NCBI RefSeq assembly: GCF_040546685.1
Contig: NZ_JBEPOH010000001.1
Location: 310,001-374,000, forward strand
Direction of reading: 5' to 3'
Origin: Variovorax sp. OAS795
GTDB taxonomy: Bacteria > Pseudomonadota > Gammaproteobacteria > Burkholderiales > Burkholderiaceae_C
DNA length: 64,000 bases
The notes beneath the pieces were generated by a model. That model was not told the origin of the DNA, did no database searches, and was given only the letters and a program-made list of their open reading frames with translations. The translations under genes were made by a program, and so were the position numbers. This document shows, in pieces, positions 36,639 through 43,141 of this stretch (the first letter of the stretch is position 1; each line of letters opens with the position of its first letter).

Positions 36639-37547
36639 TCAGCCGCCCTTGTGCTGCGCCCGCGCAAATCGCTCGAGGACTTCGACGAAGCTCGCGGCGG
36701 CCGGCGAGAGGGTGCGGCGCGCGGCGCTGTAGACGCAGACTTCGCGGTGGAAGTCGGGCGACTCCAGCCGCACCATCTGCAGGCCATGCGCGCGCACCAG
36801 CGGCGCCGAATAGGTCGGGCACACGGTGAGCCCGAGGCCCGAAGCGACCATGCCGAGCGCGGTGGTCATGTACGACACCTCCTGCGTCTCGGGGCGCAGC
36901 ATGTACGCGCGCTCCGCCGGCCCCAGTTCGGGCAGCACGCGCTGGCGAAAGTCGCGCGTGGGCGCAATGAAGGTGTAGGGCGCGAGTTCATGCCAGCGCA
37001 ACTTGCGGCGCCCGGCAAACGCATGGCCGGGCGGGCAGATCAGCCAGTGCCTGTCGCGAAACAGCGTCCGGCGCTCGATGGCACCGTCCACCGCCACGTC
37101 CTGCCCCACCGCCAACTCCACATCGCCGGCCATGACGCCGGCGAGCAGGTGCTCCGGCAGGGTGTCGGCCAGGCGCACGTCGACGTCGGGATAGGCCTTG
37201 CGGTAGACCGCGATCACGCGCGGCATCAGCGTGCAGGCCATCAGTTGCGGCGCTGCAAGACGCAACAGACCTTTCTTCTTGTCACGTAAATCCGTCACGC
37301 CGGCCACCGCACTCGCAAGGTCGCCCAGCAGCCTGTGCACCGACGGCAAAAATTCGCGGCCGGCCTCGGAGAGCTGCACGCGGCGCGTGTGGCGGTCGAG
37401 CAGTTGCACGCCCATCTCGCGCTCGAGCTCGCGCACCAGCACGCTGAGCGCGGACTGCGTGAGATGCAGTTGCTGCGCGGCGGCCGTGAAGCCGCCGGCC
37501 TCGGCCACGGCCTTGAAGGCGCGCAATTGGCGCAGGGTCAGATTCAT
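36639..37547 (-). CDS. LysR-family transcriptional regulator
   Basis: A 302-residue regulator. N-terminal winged [64 protein letters not shown]. The effector-binding domain covers residues about 90-295, with [22 protein letters not shown] and [15 protein letters not shown]. It diverges from the VOC-hydrolase-monooxygenase operon across 87 bases, so it is the probable regulator of that operon, with an aromatic or related intermediate as inducer. pgk lies downstream on the same strand, but co-regulation is not implied. Confidence 0.93.
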
Positions 37548-37634
37548 ATGTCTATTTCATCAATGAATGAATTAATTTCGATTGCATCATAGGACGCGGC
37601 ATTGCCCAATCACGGCTCACCGGAGACAAAGCCA

Positions 37635-38183
37635 ATGCCGACGACCGCCCCCACGGCCCCCGCAGTTCGCGGGCTGCACCATTTCGCCTGGCGCTGCCGC
37701 GACAGCGAGGAAACGCGCCGCTTCTACGAGGACCTGCTGGGCCTGCCGCTCGCCCACGTGATCAAGAGCGACCACGTGCCGAGCACCGGCGAGTACTGCC
37801 CGTACGTGCACATCTTTTTCCAGATGCGCGACGGCTCGTACATCGCCTTCTTCGACCTGGGCGACGACGTGGCCGCGCTGCCTTCACCCAACACCCCCGC
37901 GTGGGTGAACCACATCGCGCTGCGCGTGGATTCGGTCGAGGACCTGCTCGCGGCCAAGGCGAGACTCGAAGCCGCGGGCGTCGAAGTGCTGGGCGTGACC
38001 GACCACCACATCATCGAGTCGATCTATTTCTTCGACCCCAACGGCATCCGGCTGGAGCTCACCACGCCGACCGTGCCGCAGGCCGAGATGGACGCGCATG
38101 CGAAGCGCGCCCGCGCAGACCTCGACGCATGGACCGAGCGCAAGGCGCAGCTTCGTGCAGCGAAAGGCGGTACCAATGCCTGA
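37635..38183 (+). CDS. VOC-family (glyoxalase/extradiol dioxygenase-like) protein
   Basis: A 182-residue metal-dependent VOC protein: RGLHHFAWRCRDSEETRRFYEDLLGLPL with the first metal histidine, VHIFFQMRDGSYIAFFDLGDD, WVNHIALRV with the second histidine, and YFFDPNGIRLELTT with the metal glutamate. The reaction could be dioxygenation, isomerisation or hydrolysis of a ring-derived compound. GGAG lies nine bases before the ATG at 37635. It is the first gene of the operon and its stop lies inside the start of the next gene (8-base overlap). Confidence 0.88.
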   Translation: MPTTAPTAPAVRGLHHFAWRCRDSEETRRFYEDLLGLPLAHVIKSDHVPSTGEYCPYVHIFFQMRDGSYIAFFDLGDDVAALPSPNTPAWVNHIALRVDSVEDLLAAKARLEAAGVEVLGVTDHHIIESIYFFDPNGIRLELTTPTVPQAEMDAHAKRARADLDAWTERKAQLRAAKGGTNA

Positions 38184-39297
38184 GCTGCAACTCGCCGTCA
38201 TCGACGTGAAGCCCGGGGCGGCGATGGAAAGCCAGTCGGGGCTGCAGATGCTGCGTCCGCGCATCTACGGCGCCTTTCGCGCGCCGACAGGCCCCAAGAA
38301 GATCGCAGCCATCGTGATGCACCCGACCAGCAACTTCATGGGGCACTACCTGATCGCACCGCTGGCCGAACGCGGCATCTGCTGCATGGGGCTGAACTCG
38401 CGCTACGTGGGCAACGACACGGTGCTGCTCATGGAGCGCGCCATCCAGGACCTGGGCGCGGGGGTGCAGTACCTGCGCGCAGCCGGCTACGAGAAGGTGT
38501 TCCTCGTCGGCAACTCGGGCGGCGCCGCGCTCGCGAGCTTCTACCAGGCGCAGGCCGAGAAGCTCACGGCCACGCACCTGCCCGACGGCGACCCGACCCA
38601 CCTGCACCCGGACGACCTGCCGCCGGTGGACGGCATTGCACTGTGCGCCGCCCACCTGGGCCGCACGCGGCTGATGCGCGACTGGATCGACCCCTCGGTG
38701 ACCGACGAGCACGATCCGCTGTCGGTGGACCCCGCGCTCGACATGTACGACCCGCGCCACCGCCCGCCCTACGAGGCCGAATTTCTCGCACGCTTCAGCG
38801 CGGCGCAGCAGGCGCGGCTCGACCGCATCGAGCAGTGGTGCATGGACCGGCTCGCGCAGCTGCGCAGCACGCCCGGTGCGCCGCGCGACCAGGCCTTCGT
38901 CATCTACCGCACGCACGCCGATCCGCGCTGCGTGGACCTTTCGCTCGACCCCAACGACCGCCTGCCGGGCAGCGTGTGGGGCGATGCGCGGCAGGTGAAC
39001 TACTCGGCCAATGCGATGGGGCGCACCACCTCGCTCACGGCGTTCCTGTCGCAATGGTCGTCGCGCTCGCAGGCCGACGGACCGACCAACCTGGCGCGCA
39101 CCACGGTGCCCAAGCTGCTGCTCACCTACACGGGCGACCAGTCGACCTTCCCGAGCACGCGCGATGCATGGATGGCCGCGGGCGGTGCGCGCATCCGCAA
39201 TGTCGACATCGTGGGCGGCAACCACTATCTCGCGGGCCAGCCCGAGCTGGTGCCCCGGGCGGCGGATGCCATCGCCGAATTCGCCCACGCGCTCTAG
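38176..39297 (+). CDS. Alpha/beta hydrolase of the catabolic operon
   Basis: A 373-residue protein with an alpha/beta-hydrolase pattern: IAAIVMHPTSNFMGHYLIAPLAERGICCMGLNSRYVGND, nucleophile elbow VGNSGGAAL, and late VGGNHYLAGQPELV with the catalytic histidine. An extended middle region (residues about 150-280) forms a lid. The family is that of hydrolases encoded beside FAD monooxygenases in Bordetella and Variovorax clusters; the substrate is unknown. It overlaps the VOC gene by 8 bases and the monooxygenase starts 7 bases after it. Confidence 0.85.
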   Translation: MPELQLAVIDVKPGAAMESQSGLQMLRPRIYGAFRAPTGPKKIAAIVMHPTSNFMGHYLIAPLAERGICCMGLNSRYVGNDTVLLMERAIQDLGAGVQYLRAAGYEKVFLVGNSGGAALASFYQAQAEKLTATHLPDGDPTHLHPDDLPPVDGIALCAAHLGRTRLMRDWIDPSVTDEHDPLSVDPALDMYDPRHRPPYEAEFLARFSAAQQARLDRIEQWCMDRLAQLRSTPGAPRDQAFVIYRTHADPRCVDLSLDPNDRLPGSVWGDARQVNYSANAMGRTTSLTAFLSQWSSRSQADGPTNLARTTVPKLLLTYTGDQSTFPSTRDAWMAAGGARIRNVDIVGGNHYLAGQPELVPRAADAIAEFAHAL

Positions 39298-39304
39298 AAA
39301 AGAC

Positions 39305-40955
39305 ATGGAAAGCTTTGCATTCGCGCCGGCCTACGCGCTTCCGAGCTGGCCCTTCACGACGCCGCCCGAACTGGGCAGCAGCCAGACCGTGCGCCACCCC
39401 ATCGTGATCGTCGGCGCCGGGCCTTCGGGCCTGACGCTGGCCTGCGACCTGGCCCGACGCGGCGTGCGCGCCGTGCTGCTCGACGAGGACGACACCGTCG
39501 GCGTTCGCGGCGCCTCGTCGCGCGGCATCTGCTATGCGCAGAAGAGCCTGGAGATCTTCGAGCGCCTCGGCATCTACGAGCGCATTGCGGCCAAGGGCAT
39601 CACCTGGTCGTTCGGGCGCACCTTCTCGGGCGAGCAGGAGGTCTACAACTTCAACCTGCAGGCGAACAGCGTTTCGGCACAGCCGCCGTTCATCAACCTG
39701 CAGCAGTTCTACGTCGAGTGGTTCCTGGTCGAGCGCATTATCGAGCTCGGCCTCACCGACCTGCGGTGGAAGAGCCGGGTGACGCGCGTGGAGCCGCTCG
39801 GCGATGGCGCGCGCATCGAAGTCGAAACACCGGCGGGCCGCTACACGATCGAGGCCGACCGGCTGATCGACGCCACCGGCGCGAACAGCGCGATCCGCAC
39901 GCAGCTCGGCATCGACGCGCATTCGTCGCGCAGCACCGACCGCTGGTGCATCAGCGACGTGCGCTTCAAGAAGCCGCTGCCCGTCGAGCGGTGGACCTGG
40001 GTCGATGCCCCGTTCAACGAAGGACGCGGCGTGTGGCAGCACCTGATGGCCGATGGTGTCTGGCGCATCGACTACCAGATGCCTGAAGACTGCGACACCG
40101 CCGCCATCAGCCGGCCCGAAGTGGCGGGCGCGCGGCTGCGGGAACAGCTCGGGCCGGACGTGGAATTCGAGTTCGTGTGGATCGGCCCGTATGGCTACCG
40201 CGACCACCTGCTCGACAGTTTCCGCCACGGCCAGGTGTTCTTCATCGGCGATGCCGCGCACGTGGTGAGCCCCTTCGGCGCACGCGGCGGCAACAGCGGC
40301 ATCCAGGATGCCGTCAACCTCGGGTGGAAGCTCGCGCTGGTGGCGCAAGGGCAGGCCGGCGATGCGCTGCTCGACAGCTACGACGCCGAGCGCCAGCCCG
40401 CCGCAAGGCAGAACCTGGAAGTGACGAGCCGCTCGGCGCGCTTCCTGGCGCCGCGTTCGCCGGCCGAGCACACGCTGCGGCGCGCAGTGGTGTCGCTGGC
40501 CCGCGCGCCATCCGTTCGCGCGAGCGCTGGTGAACACGGGCCGCATGTCGGTCGCCAACGACTACCCGCCCGCGCCGCTGCTGCCCGAAGGCGGCCGCAG
40601 CGTGCAGAACCTGCCGCTGCGCTGGGCCGACGGGCGCCAGACGACGCTGATGCAGCTGCTGGCCGAGGACACCGGGTGCATCGGGCTCTGGCTGGCGCCG
40701 ACACGCGCCGAAGCCGACGCGGCACTGGCAGCGACCGCGTCGCTTGCGTTGCGCCTGATGGCCATTGGCGGCGACAGCGGCCTGCCCACGCTGCACGCCG
40801 ACGACCAGCTCACCGGCCACCTGGGCCTTCGCGAGCCGGGCAGCTTCGCGCTCGTGCGCCCCGATGCCTACCGCGCCGTGATGCTCGCGCACGCCACCCC
40901 CGATGCGATCGCGGCCGCGCTGCGCACGGCCCTTGCCAAGGACGCCGCCCCATGA
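39305..40955 (+). pseudogene. FAD-dependent aromatic monooxygenase, interrupted by a one-base frameshift
   Basis: A class A flavoprotein hydroxylase of the UbiH/MhpA kind: FAD motif IVIVGAGPSGLTLACDLARRG near residue 35, RLIDATGANSAIRTQLG, and the second FAD motif FFIGDAAHVVSPFGARGGNSGIQDAVNLGWKLA. The frame is intact to residue about 400, then shifts at GCGCGCC (40503-40509). Deleting one C there restores RAHPFARALVNTGRMSVANDYPP and a normal thioredoxin-like C-terminal domain running to 40955, giving a 549-residue protein. Without correction the frame would run on into DUF2783, producing a chimeric tail. It is either a real disruption or a sequencing error; the rest shows no decay. Confidence 0.87.
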
Positions 40956-41155
40956 TCACCGAGCCCCGCATTCCCGATCCCGACGGCTTCTATGCCGCCC
41001 TGCTTGCCGCGCACGAGGGCCTGGACGAAGCCCGCAGCGCCGACCTGAACGCGCGGCTCGTGCTGCTGCTGGCCAACCAGTGCGGCGACCAGCAGGTGCT
41101 GCTGGAGTGCATCCGAGCGGCGGCCGAAGACTCTCGAACAAGCAAGGCCACATGA
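40952..41155 (+). CDS. DUF2783 domain-containing small protein
   Basis: A 67-residue soluble protein: IPDPDGFYAALLAAHEGLDEARSADLNARLVLLLANQCGD. It matches the DUF2783 pattern. The family is characteristically encoded between an FAD monooxygenase and an MBL-fold gene, as here, with ATGA overlaps of 4 bases at both ends. It may be a small accessory subunit; no catalytic motif is visible. Confidence 0.85.
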   Translation: MITEPRIPDPDGFYAALLAAHEGLDEARSADLNARLVLLLANQCGDQQVLLECIRAAAEDSRTSKAT

Positions 41156-42129
41156 ACACCAACGTCTCCTTCGCCTCCGCTTCCGACATGCGCGAGCAGA
41201 AGCCGCGGCTGCACGAACTCGCGCCCGATGTGTACGGCTACATCAGCGACTTCGATCCGAACTGCGGCTTCGTGGTCGGCGACGACCAGGTGGTGCTGAT
41301 CGACACGCGGCCCACGCCGCGCATGGCGCGCGACTTTCTCGCCGCCATCCGCACCGTGACCGACAAGCCGATCAAGACCATCGTGCTCACGCACTACCAC
41401 GCGGTGCGCGTGATGGGCGCCAGCGCCTTCGGCGAGGTCGAGGCCATCATCGCGAGCCACGGCACGCTGGACTGGATCCGTACGCGCGGGCAGGCCGACT
41501 TCGACTCGGAGGTCGGCCGCTTTCCGCGCCTGTTCGCGGGCGTCGAAGAGATCCCCGGCCTCACGTTCCCCACGATGAGCTTCGAGCGCCAGATGAGCCT
41601 GTGGCTCGGTCCCCGCGAAGGCGCGGGCCGCGAATTGCGCCTCATGGCGCTGGGCCGCGGGCATTCGAGCGGCGACACGGTGGCGTGGCTGCCCGGCTGC
41701 GGGGTGCTGTTCTCGGGCGACGTGGTGGAGAACCATTGCGGCGTCTACGCGGGCGATGCCTACATCGGCGACTGGACCGGCACGCTCGACGCCGTGCTCG
41801 CGCTCGAGCCGCGCGTGCTGGTGCCGGGACGCGGCGCGGTGCTGCAGGACGAAGCCGCCTGCGCCGAGGCCATCGGGCTCACCAAGGCGTTTCTCGGGAC
41901 GCTGCTCGGCAGCGTGAAGGCGGGCATCGACGCCGGCGAAACGCTCAAGGGCTGCTTCGCACGGGCCGAGGCCGCGATGGCGCCGCGCTTCGGCAGCTGG
42001 CCGGTGTTCCAGCATGTGCTGCCCTTCGACGTTTCGCGCGCCTATGACGAGCTGCGCGGCATCGAGCATCCCAAGGTGTGGACGGCGGAGCGGGACCGCG
42101 AACTGTGGCAGACGCTGCGCGGCGGATGA
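41152..42129 (+). CDS. MBL-fold hydrolase-like protein with degenerate zinc motif
   Basis: A 325-residue metallo-beta-lactamase-fold protein. The canonical HxHxDH is HYHAVR (His81, His83, then Val85 and Arg86 in place of Asp and His), so one zinc site is lost. Other ligands remain: His171 in GRGHSSGD and Asp190 in LFSGDVVENH. It could bind one metal or work differently. The C-terminal half is helical. It overlaps DUF2783 by 4 bases and belongs to the monooxygenase operon, where a ring-cleavage or hydrolysis step would be expected. Confidence 0.85.
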   Translation: MNTNVSFASASDMREQKPRLHELAPDVYGYISDFDPNCGFVVGDDQVVLIDTRPTPRMARDFLAAIRTVTDKPIKTIVLTHYHAVRVMGASAFGEVEAIIASHGTLDWIRTRGQADFDSEVGRFPRLFAGVEEIPGLTFPTMSFERQMSLWLGPREGAGRELRLMALGRGHSSGDTVAWLPGCGVLFSGDVVENHCGVYAGDAYIGDWTGTLDAVLALEPRVLVPGRGAVLQDEAACAEAIGLTKAFLGTLLGSVKAGIDAGETLKGCFARAEAAMAPRFGSWPVFQHVLPFDVSRAYDELRGIEHPKVWTAERDRELWQTLRGG

Positions 42130-42166
42130 ACCCTCAGATTTCAAGCAAGCAACGGAGACAAAGACG

Positions 42167-43141
42167 ATGAAACGCTTCCTTCCCCTGTTGGCCGCAGCCC
42201 TCGCGCTGGCCGCCAGCCCCTTCGCCTCCGCGCAGCCGGCGGCCTACCCGAGCCAGCCGGTGAAATGGATCGTGCCCTACGTGGCCGGCGGCGGCACCGA
42301 CAACCTGGCACGCGCGCTGGCCGAGGCCATGCAGCCGTCGCTCGGACAGCCGCTGATCATCGACAACCGGCCCGGCGCGTCCACCAACATCGGCGTGTCC
42401 GTGCTGATGCAGGCCAAGCCCGACGGCTACACCATCATGCAGGCCGAGAACGCGGCACTGCTCTTCAACGAGCACATGTTCGCCAAGCTGCCCTACAAGC
42501 CGGCGACCGACTTCACCTACATCGGCGCGATCGGCCGCTTTCCGGTGGCGCTGGTGGTGCATCCGGACTTTCCCGCGAAGAACGTGGCCGAGTTCGTGCG
42601 CTACGTGAAGGCGAACCCCGAGAAGGTGAGCTACGCCTCGCCGGGCAACGGCTCGCCGCACCACATGGCGATGGAGCTCTTCAAGCAGAAGGCCGGCCTC
42701 AGCATCACGCACGTGCCCTACAAGGGCGCCGCGCCCGCGATGACCGACGTGATGGGCGGGCAGGTGCCGACGATGATGCTCGACCTCGCTTCGGGCCTGC
42801 CGATCATCAAGGCCGGCAAGGTGCGCGTGCTCGCGATCGCCCTGCCCCAGCGTGCGGGCGCGCTGCCCGAGGTGCCCACCTTCGTCGAGGCTGGCTTCAG
42901 CGACGTCAACGCCTACGCCTTCCATGGCCTGATCGGCCCGGCCGGCATGCCGCCGGAGGCAGTGGCGCGCATCAACAGCGAACTGCACAAGGCCATGAAG
43001 GCGCCGAAGGTGGTGAAGCTGTTCTCGGAATTCGGCTTCGAGGCGCTGCCGGGCACGCCCCAGGAGTTCTACAAGCTCTCGCGCGCGGAGAGCGATCGCT
43101 GGGGCAAGATCATCCAGGCCGCGGGCGTGAAGCTGGACTGA
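42167..43141 (+). CDS. Bug/TctC-type tripartite tricarboxylate transporter substrate-binding protein
   Basis: A 324-residue periplasmic binding protein with a signal peptide (MKRFLPLLAAALALAASPFASAQP) and the Bug signature: YPSQPVKWIVPYVAGGGTDNLAR, IIDNRPGASTNIGV, DGYT, SYASPGNGSPHHMAMELF, HVPYKGAAPAMTDVMGGQVPTMM, RVLAIAL and LPEVPTFVEAG. Such proteins bind carboxylates, often aromatic. No TctA/TctB permease genes are nearby, as is common for these proteins. GGAG lies nine bases before the start. It is the last gene of the operon and its likely ligand is the pathway substrate. Confidence 0.93.
   Translation: MKRFLPLLAAALALAASPFASAQPAAYPSQPVKWIVPYVAGGGTDNLARALAEAMQPSLGQPLIIDNRPGASTNIGVSVLMQAKPDGYTIMQAENAALLFNEHMFAKLPYKPATDFTYIGAIGRFPVALVVHPDFPAKNVAEFVRYVKANPEKVSYASPGNGSPHHMAMELFKQKAGLSITHVPYKGAAPAMTDVMGGQVPTMMLDLASGLPIIKAGKVRVLAIALPQRAGALPEVPTFVEAGFSDVNAYAFHGLIGPAGMPPEAVARINSELHKAMKAPKVVKLFSEFGFEALPGTPQEFYKLSRAESDRWGKIIQAAGVKLD

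Follow-up and report, generated by a model that had tools for sequence, protein, structure and literature searches.

Gene content and conservation of the operon

The window analysed here is a stretch of 64,000 nucleotides from Variovorax sp. OAS795 (contig NZ_JBEPOH010000001.1, positions 310,001 to 374,000; the host genome comprises 6.09 Mb in two contigs), and our subject is an operon of plus-strand genes at window positions 37635 to 43141, which diverges from the gene of a LysR-type regulator. We put the probability at about one in two that this operon encodes a para-diol (homogentisate-type) pathway which is complete in itself and whose substrate is a meta-hydroxylated aryl acid. The features of the locus are as follows (VOC, vicinal oxygen chelate; MBL, metallo-beta-lactamase):

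36639..37547, minus strand: LysR-type regulator (Pfam HTH_1 and LysR_substrate), divergent from the VOC gene
37556..37591, strand not applicable: candidate LysR operator, imperfect palindrome TTCATC-N4-GATGAA plus ATTTCGATTG-ATCATA
37635..38183, plus strand: VOC protein, 182 aa (PF00903, Glyoxalase), candidate single-domain type I extradiol-like ring-cleavage dioxygenase
38176..39297, plus strand: alpha/beta hydrolase, 373 aa (weak Abhydrolase_6), candidate hydrolase of the ring-cleavage product
39305..40510, plus strand: N-terminal FAD domain of the FAD monooxygenase, MhaA-like (FAD_binding_3, E 4e-62)
40530..40955, plus strand: C-terminal domain of the FAD monooxygenase (Rng_hyd_C, E 6e-4, and PRK08132 positions 404-550)
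40952..41155, plus strand: DUF2783 protein, 67 aa (PF10932, E 2e-25), probable MhaB-like small coupling component
41152..42129, plus strand: MBL-fold protein, 325 aa (Lactamase_B), with a non-canonical HxHAVR motif
42167..43141, plus strand: TctC/Bug-type periplasmic solute-binding protein (PF03401, E 4e-82)

A first-pass annotation, made from the letters of the window alone, had described a LysR gene diverging from six tightly packed plus-strand genes, and its coordinates and spacings all hold: the VOC and hydrolase genes overlap by 8 bases, 7 bases separate the hydrolase gene from the FAD monooxygenase gene (start at 39305), 4-base overlaps join the latter to the DUF2783 gene (40952-40955) and the DUF2783 gene to the MBL gene (41152-41155), the gap between the MBL and TctC genes is 37 bases, and 87 bases lie between the LysR start (37547) and the VOC start. 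Pfam agrees with its calls of LysR, VOC, FAD monooxygenase, DUF2783, MBL and TctC families, while for the hydrolase there is merely a weak Abhydrolase_6 match under the curated cut-off. The count of six genes is correct for all but the FAD monooxygenase, which is not a single open reading frame (ORF), a frame break that the annotation had missed.

A collection of named genomes was scanned with an alignment of the hydrolase, which gave 159 loci, and the best 80 were kept for all counts out of 80, some of these loci stopping at contig edges. The LysR, VOC, hydrolase, FAD monooxygenase, DUF2783, MBL and TctC genes are all in place in 44 of the 80 loci, a gene order far beyond chance, and four further loci have everything except LysR. 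The VOC gene is immediately upstream of the hydrolase gene in 70/80, the divergent LysR gene is in place in 60/80 and the TctC gene in 48/80. The hydrolases of the nearest named relatives, also Variovorax, are 93-95% identical, but the gene order is conserved beyond the genus, a point which the first-pass annotation had singled out for checking: the complete set was seen in Variovorax, Xenophilus and Pseudacidovorax, and Caldimonas has all of it except TctC. Partial sets occur in Massilia, Rhizobacter, Hydrogenophaga and Pigmentiphaga, the Pigmentiphaga flavoprotein belonging to another clade, and in Massilia niastensis an aconitase-family gene lies between the hydrolase and FAD genes of the same set (L158:11133-12539). 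When 22 regions between the LysR and VOC genes were aligned (the window and 21 of the 60 loci having both genes in place, reaching Caldimonas), a block of about 36 bases was near-constant and its flanks were variable; this palindromic block is predicted from the alignment to be, probably, the LysR operator. The conserved gene set and this element between LysR and VOC lend good support to the earlier description of a catabolic operon under LysR control, here for aromatic compounds.

The span of the FAD monooxygenase (39305-40955) is 1,651 bases, which is no multiple of three, and contains more than one ORF. The C-terminal domain (40530-40955, with its Rng_hyd_C match below the cut-off) is in a different frame from the FAD domain, the frame of which stays open past the break at 40500-40545 and continues into the DUF2783 frame; the end point of the N-terminal part at 40510 was set by us. 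This long open frame had suggested a FAD-DUF2783 fusion or a programmed frameshift, both of which were ruled out, as the two pieces are in one frame in 63 of the 63 named relatives having both (a 64th locus with a FAD match has no C-terminal match, and so is outside this count). Since relatives carry intact copies, the break would belong to this strain or to its assembly, and is hardly programmed.

The probable two-component hydroxylase and the single-domain VOC protein

The N-terminal FAD piece scores far under the cut-offs of the MhpA models (162 bits against 390 for NF004829, 154 against 853 for NF004828), whereas it exceeds that of PRK08132/NF006002 (475.6 bits against 416). A tree was made of 84 rows, 81 of them different, taken from 129 collected sequences and the window piece, with Variovorax thinned and MhaA of Pseudomonas putida U not among the rows. 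Here the window flavoprotein belongs to clade A (35 rows, support 100) and not to its sister group, clade B (46 rows, support 96), where the hmgA-linked proteins including a second copy from the own genome are found. Model cut-offs and tree rule out the MhpA family, the placement that the first-pass annotation had asked to be checked, and the hydroxylase represents, by family placement, a new clade within a two-component kind that is already known.

That kind is represented by MhaAB, the 3-hydroxyphenylacetate 6-hydroxylase of P. putida U, a 566-aa flavoprotein with a 60-aa coupling protein converting 3-hydroxyphenylacetate into homogentisate according to passages of PMC3053370, in which a pair of 560 aa and 60 aa beside hmgA in Burkholderia xenovorans LB400 is also proposed as MhaAB; further passages on MhaAB are found in PMC10983741, and a review table in PMC6165268 includes the enzyme. 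An order-wide search found DUF2783 in 50 of 300 genomes. Of the places located by this search, 50 together with the hmgA-linked copy of the own genome make up the 51 DUF2783 loci considered below with wide flanks; the copy in the window, one duplicate (G029:C24) and five weak matches were left out. A FAD monooxygenase of the same family adjoins DUF2783 in 50 of the 51 loci, and in nine of ten annotated plasmid loci looked at. The single exception among the 51 (L198, in G084:C89) has an MBL gene followed by DUF2783, with the flavoprotein gene missing. Because size, gene order and flavoprotein partner agree (the Pfam model has 59 positions), DUF2783 is probably an MhaB-like coupling component, the two having been set side by side by description alone, and the earlier view that it lacks a known role probably does not hold. 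In the open-licence literature DUF2783 itself was found in one paper only, as a table entry (PMC6710368).

A stricter rule, that the flavoprotein is always adjoined by DUF2783, was ruled out on rechecking the 63 loci with a window-type flavoprotein. The own genome carries a second cluster of this kind, in the order IclR-MBL-FAD-DUF2783-hmgA-fahA, where hmgA and fahA each exceed the curated cut-off. It also has HPPD and two HgmA matches, at C1:812411 and C2:821654-822100, both outside the window operon; the latter is on the other contig and separate from the HgmA of the MhaAB-like cluster.

With regard to the VOC protein, residues H16, H93, H124, Y131 and E141 are invariant in 29 rows covering both VOC types distinguished below, and in a profile alignment all five sit on counterparts in catechol 2,3-dioxygenase L231. 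We take H16, H93 and E141 to be the metal ligands (2-His-1-Glu), and H124 and Y131 to be second-shell residues. Six extradiol residues were at first thought to be kept, of which the profile alignment backs five. The solved glyoxalase-family proteins 1zsw and 2p25 have no equivalent of H124, and 2p25 also has none of Y131. The protein is a single domain of 182 aa, reaches 38.8 bits against a cut-off of 320.2 for TIGR03211, and matches glyoxalase models only, with no HgmA cupin domain. Its predicted structure (mean pLDDT 49.7) was too poor and was not used. The closest solved relative by sequence is PDB 9u42 ("Glyoxalase", 182 aa, E 8e-40), and no paper on the proteins of PDB 9U42 or of 8D2Z, a solved relative of the MBL protein, was found in the open-licence literature.

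VOC proteins as possible replacements of HmgA

The candidate ring-cleavage genes at the 51 DUF2783 loci fall into separate groups: 14 loci have hmgA, seven a distant HgmA-like gene (24-26% identity), 18 a VOC gene and 12 none of these, while hmgA and VOC occur together in 0/51. The MBL gene accompanies clusters of the hmgA and VOC types alike. The 18 VOC loci belong to genomes of which 14 have no HgmA domain anywhere, whereas four do have one (G002, G294, G179, G102). The VOC gene is beside FAH in nine of these loci, two of them also with MaiA, and a tenth (G288) is cut by a contig end; an HgmA match was found in none of these ten genomes, and HPPD, the enzyme making homogentisate, in seven. 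An annotated Sphaerotilus plasmid has the order MBL-FAD-DUF2783-TctC-VOC-fahA.

A survey independent of DUF2783 covered 250 genomes of the order, with classes set by us from gaps in the scores: strong and weak HgmA (sought by the C-terminal Pfam domain only), VOC-B at 290 bits or more with profile A3, and VOC-A at about 150-177 bits, only 13 first-look VOC candidates being scored in some genomes. HPPD is over the cut-off in 65 genomes, HgmA was detected in 52 (41 strong, 11 weak) and VOC-B in 30. Among the 28 genomes with HPPD but without HgmA, 19 carry VOC-B, five only a VOC-A-like protein and four neither, whereas VOC-B occurs in 6/31 genomes with HPPD and strong HgmA, 0/6 with HPPD and weak HgmA, and 5/185 without HPPD. 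The association of VOC-B with the absence of HgmA has a Fisher probability of 3e-5, which is nominal since the genomes are related by descent; counted by genus, VOC-B is found in 11 of the 16 genera with HPPD and no HgmA.

The surroundings of VOC-B were examined in 18 of these 19 genomes (G175, where the VOC-B copy has an internal stop, was left out). Nine have VOC-B, HPPD and FAH in one cluster, eight of them with MaiA as well (G061, G105, G151, G188, G068, G112, G219, G058) and one without (G130). Five more have VOC-B with FAH but no HPPD in the locus (G074, G038, G163, G187, G147), bringing the FAH total to 14/18, and the VOC-B locus of G234 contains FAD-DUF2783. Three of the clusters were checked with family models: MaiA is over its cut-off in all three and fumarylacetoacetase was confirmed in G058, while in the two remaining clusters the FAH-type protein has no NCBIfam match at E 1e-30 and takes its name from its resemblance to an annotated member of the FAH family. 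In the five genomes having only a VOC-A-like protein, a clade-A VOC might itself be the homogentisate enzyme, but no queried pathway gene was found near the VOC gene in the three of them that were fetched (G204, G093, G133). Judged by gene content, the nine HPPD-VOC-FAH clusters seem to be a tyrosine route in which VOC replaces HmgA. A third arrangement was noticed in G032, G077, G120, G235, G117 and G021, which have no ordinary HgmA, their HPPD being no more than about 2.1 kb away from a distant HgmA-like match; this distant type is the same as that accompanying DUF2783 in the seven loci mentioned above.

The window protein matches the VOC-B profile with 165 bits (E 3.9e-48). A wider proposal, to which we give slightly less than even chances, is that the one-domain VOC family is a second homogentisate 1,2-dioxygenase, replacing the cupin HmgA in many members of the order, and that the window operon is an offshoot of it, a complete parallel para-diol pathway with a sister VOC protein, an MhaAB-like hydroxylase, a new alpha/beta hydrolase and no MaiA or FAH. 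Among the best 120 of 8,000 VOC-B relatives the source names are VOC family protein, lactoylglutathione lyase and catechol-dioxygenase-like lyase, and no homogentisate dioxygenase is named. No VOC-fold homogentisate dioxygenase was recognised in the open-licence literature, though one may have been described elsewhere.

Proposed pathway, alternatives and known systems

Residues S114, D321 and H350 of the alpha/beta hydrolase are kept in 106/106, 106/106 and 105/106 rows, respectively (some rows being the same gene twice), and form a putative catalytic triad. The model of the protein has an alpha/beta-hydrolase fold (mean pLDDT 75); its nearest folds include esterases and dehalogenases, none of them specific. 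It has no FAA_hydrolase domain, as FAH would, the weak Abhydrolase_6 match being its sole one. Two Rhodococcus plasmids (L168:6816-9143 and L221:4716-7035) contain an HgmA-like cupin gene (HgmA_N match) followed by a hydrolase relative of 40-44% identity, and in L168 this pair adjoins styrene-degradation genes. That relatives of the hydrolase pair with either a VOC protein or an HgmA-like cupin suggests the product of ring cleavage as its substrate. Another arrangement is seen at a clade-A FAD-DUF2783 locus (L199:11295-13094), where ketopantoate-reductase-like and class II aldolase genes replace the hydrolase gene, with transporter-like genes, labelled by eye, close by.

The first-pass annotation had also counted the MBL protein as a second hydrolase, which finds no support. 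Its residues 80-87 (41389-41412) read HxHAVR, as they do in 97/97 rows including those beside hmgA (some genes having been fetched twice), instead of the HxHxDH motif usual in the superfamily, which makes ordinary two-metal hydrolysis doubtful. As for TctC, the operon contains no transporter membrane genes.

From the observed gene set, conservation, family placement, motifs and co-occurrence, the enzyme activities can be predicted as follows. LysR would induce the operon, and the TctC protein would bind a carboxylated aromatic outside the membrane. The flavoprotein with DUF2783 would hydroxylate a meta-hydroxylated aryl acid para to its existing hydroxyl, in the manner of MhaAB, as family and pairing suggest. 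VOC would then cleave the ring of the hydroquinone so formed, adjacent to the side chain, a step to which its active-site residues and the replacement of hmgA by its relatives point. The ring opening earlier ascribed to VOC thus gains support, although its substrate is probably not a catechol but a para-diol. The alpha/beta hydrolase, placed here by its position only, may cut the diketone acid in one step in lieu of MaiA and FAH, and the MBL protein would be auxiliary. Because the own genome has a separate MhaAB-like/hmgA/fahA cluster fitting 3-hydroxyphenylacetate, the window substrate is probably not that acid; it is probably another meta-hydroxylated aryl acid related to it, and no neighbouring gene identifies it.

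Since VOC and an alpha/beta hydrolase are the classical meta-cleavage pair, the operon could instead encode a catechol pathway in the style of MhpABC or BphCD, with ortho-hydroxylation, VOC as extradiol catechol dioxygenase and the hydrolase acting on the meta-cleavage product. The extradiol residues of VOC agree with this, as do two of the seven weak PDB sequence matches of the hydrolase, which are meta-cleavage-product hydrolases at non-significant E values of 0.18 and 0.46. We nevertheless regard it as distinctly unlikely, as the flavoprotein groups with proteins mostly having a DUF2783 partner and not with MhpA, the VOC relatives replace hmgA, which cleaves a para-diol, and no meta-cleavage-product hydrolase is among the best 50 of 974 fold matches (E 0.001 or better) of the hydrolase. 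Cinnamoyl, feruloyl and chlorogenic acid esterases rank high among these same 50, which would suit an arrangement where VOC, FAD monooxygenase and DUF2783 are the working para-diol unit and the hydrolase stands upstream, freeing a phenolic acid that is bound as ester or amide; clade-A trios without the hydrolase (L202, L209) and the hydrolase without VOC and FAD in 10/80 loci fit as well. However, fold rankings are coarse with a mean pLDDT of 75 and TM-scores near 0.5, the hydrolase gene overlaps and directly follows the VOC gene, the distant relatives on the two Rhodococcus plasmids come after an HgmA-like cupin gene, and the window operon has no FAH or MaiA to finish the pathway, so that we consider an upstream hydrolase unlikely.

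Decay of the operon in this strain, with the monooxygenase a pseudogene and the pathway idle here whatever relatives do, strikes us as somewhat unlikely: there is one frame break in the window versus none in the 63 relatives having both pieces, but the remaining genes are well-conserved ORFs with family domains, one such break, in a GC-rich region known from a single assembly, may be due to an error of sequencing, and a second assembly of the strain was not seen. Several observations weigh against the para-diol pathway that we prefer, or against the VOC replacement behind it, and the frame break is among them, as it makes the operon copy of this genome doubtful. His199, the catalytic residue in catechol 2,3-dioxygenase numbering, has no aligned equivalent in VOC, the invariant H59 lying earlier and not aligned with it. 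Identity between the window VOC and the hmgA-replacing VOC proteins is only about 43-50%, and none of the loci examined showed a VOC of the clade-A type beside HPPD or FAH. G027, G156 and G223, of one genus and with HPPD but no HgmA, have VOC-B without queried pathway genes nearby. The hydrolase may have a more general job, being found without VOC or FAD in the ten loci just mentioned, and clade-A loci without it exist (L202, L209 and L199). DUF2783 and MBL genes are missing within 6 kb after the hydrolase gene in eight of the 63 loci with a window-type flavoprotein (L093, L097, L132, L133, L136, L138, L143 and L145, where VOC, hydrolase and flavoprotein are present); all eight genomes have a DUF2783 gene elsewhere, and a shared partner is possible. 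On a Sphingobium herbicidovorans plasmid DUF2783 adjoins hmgA and lacks an intact flavoprotein gene, an annotated fragment lying further off, and MBL and TctC are without a step in the proposed scheme.

This reading gives DUF2783 something concrete and testable to do, as the coupling partner of a flavin hydroxylase. It also offers, in VOC-B, a candidate for the step missing in the 28 of 65 HPPD-bearing genomes without an HgmA match, 19 of which carry it. If it is correct, a number of genes now labelled lactoylglutathione lyase would be ring-cleaving dioxygenases, tyrosine degradation in those genomes would be reannotated, and Variovorax would have in this operon a new and self-contained route for a phenolic acid.

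Among known systems, MhaAB resembles the window operon in pairing a flavoprotein of about 550 aa with a partner of 60-70 aa encoded by the neighbouring gene (67 aa for the window DUF2783, which is adjacent in 55 of the 63 window-type relatives and not in eight), and the second FAD-DUF2783 pair of the own genome adjoins hmgA as do mhaAB in the LB400 passages of PMC3053370. It differs in that the window flavoprotein belongs to another clade, sharing about 45% identity with the own-genome copy in the part that aligns, and that hmgA, FAH and MaiA domains are all missing from the operon, which comes with VOC and the alpha/beta hydrolase. Type I extradiol dioxygenases, among which PcpA/LinE are hydroquinone dioxygenases, share the VOC fold family and the alignable 2-His-1-Glu site with second-shell His and Tyr, whereas the window protein has one domain of 182 aa instead of two and leaves His199 unaligned. 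PDB 9u42 resembles the hmgA-replacing VOC proteins in sequence but is named merely a glyoxalase. In Bradyrhizobium diazoefficiens, PMC6710368 lists bll2330-bll2329-bsl2328 (VOC, FAD oxidoreductase and DUF2783) as one operon, and among the genes lowered in an nnrR mutant; this alphaproteobacterial trio has these three genes in common with the window operon, is listed without an alpha/beta hydrolase or MBL gene, and may tie the wider VOC-FAD-DUF2783 class to low oxygen in that organism. The homogentisate pathway hmgABC (cupin HmgA, MaiA and FAH) shares with the proposed route the cleavage of a para-diol ring followed by hydrolysis, and has the FAD-DUF2783-MBL neighbours in common with it, whereas in the window VOC takes the place of the cupin HmgA, and the alpha/beta hydrolase that of MaiA and FAH.

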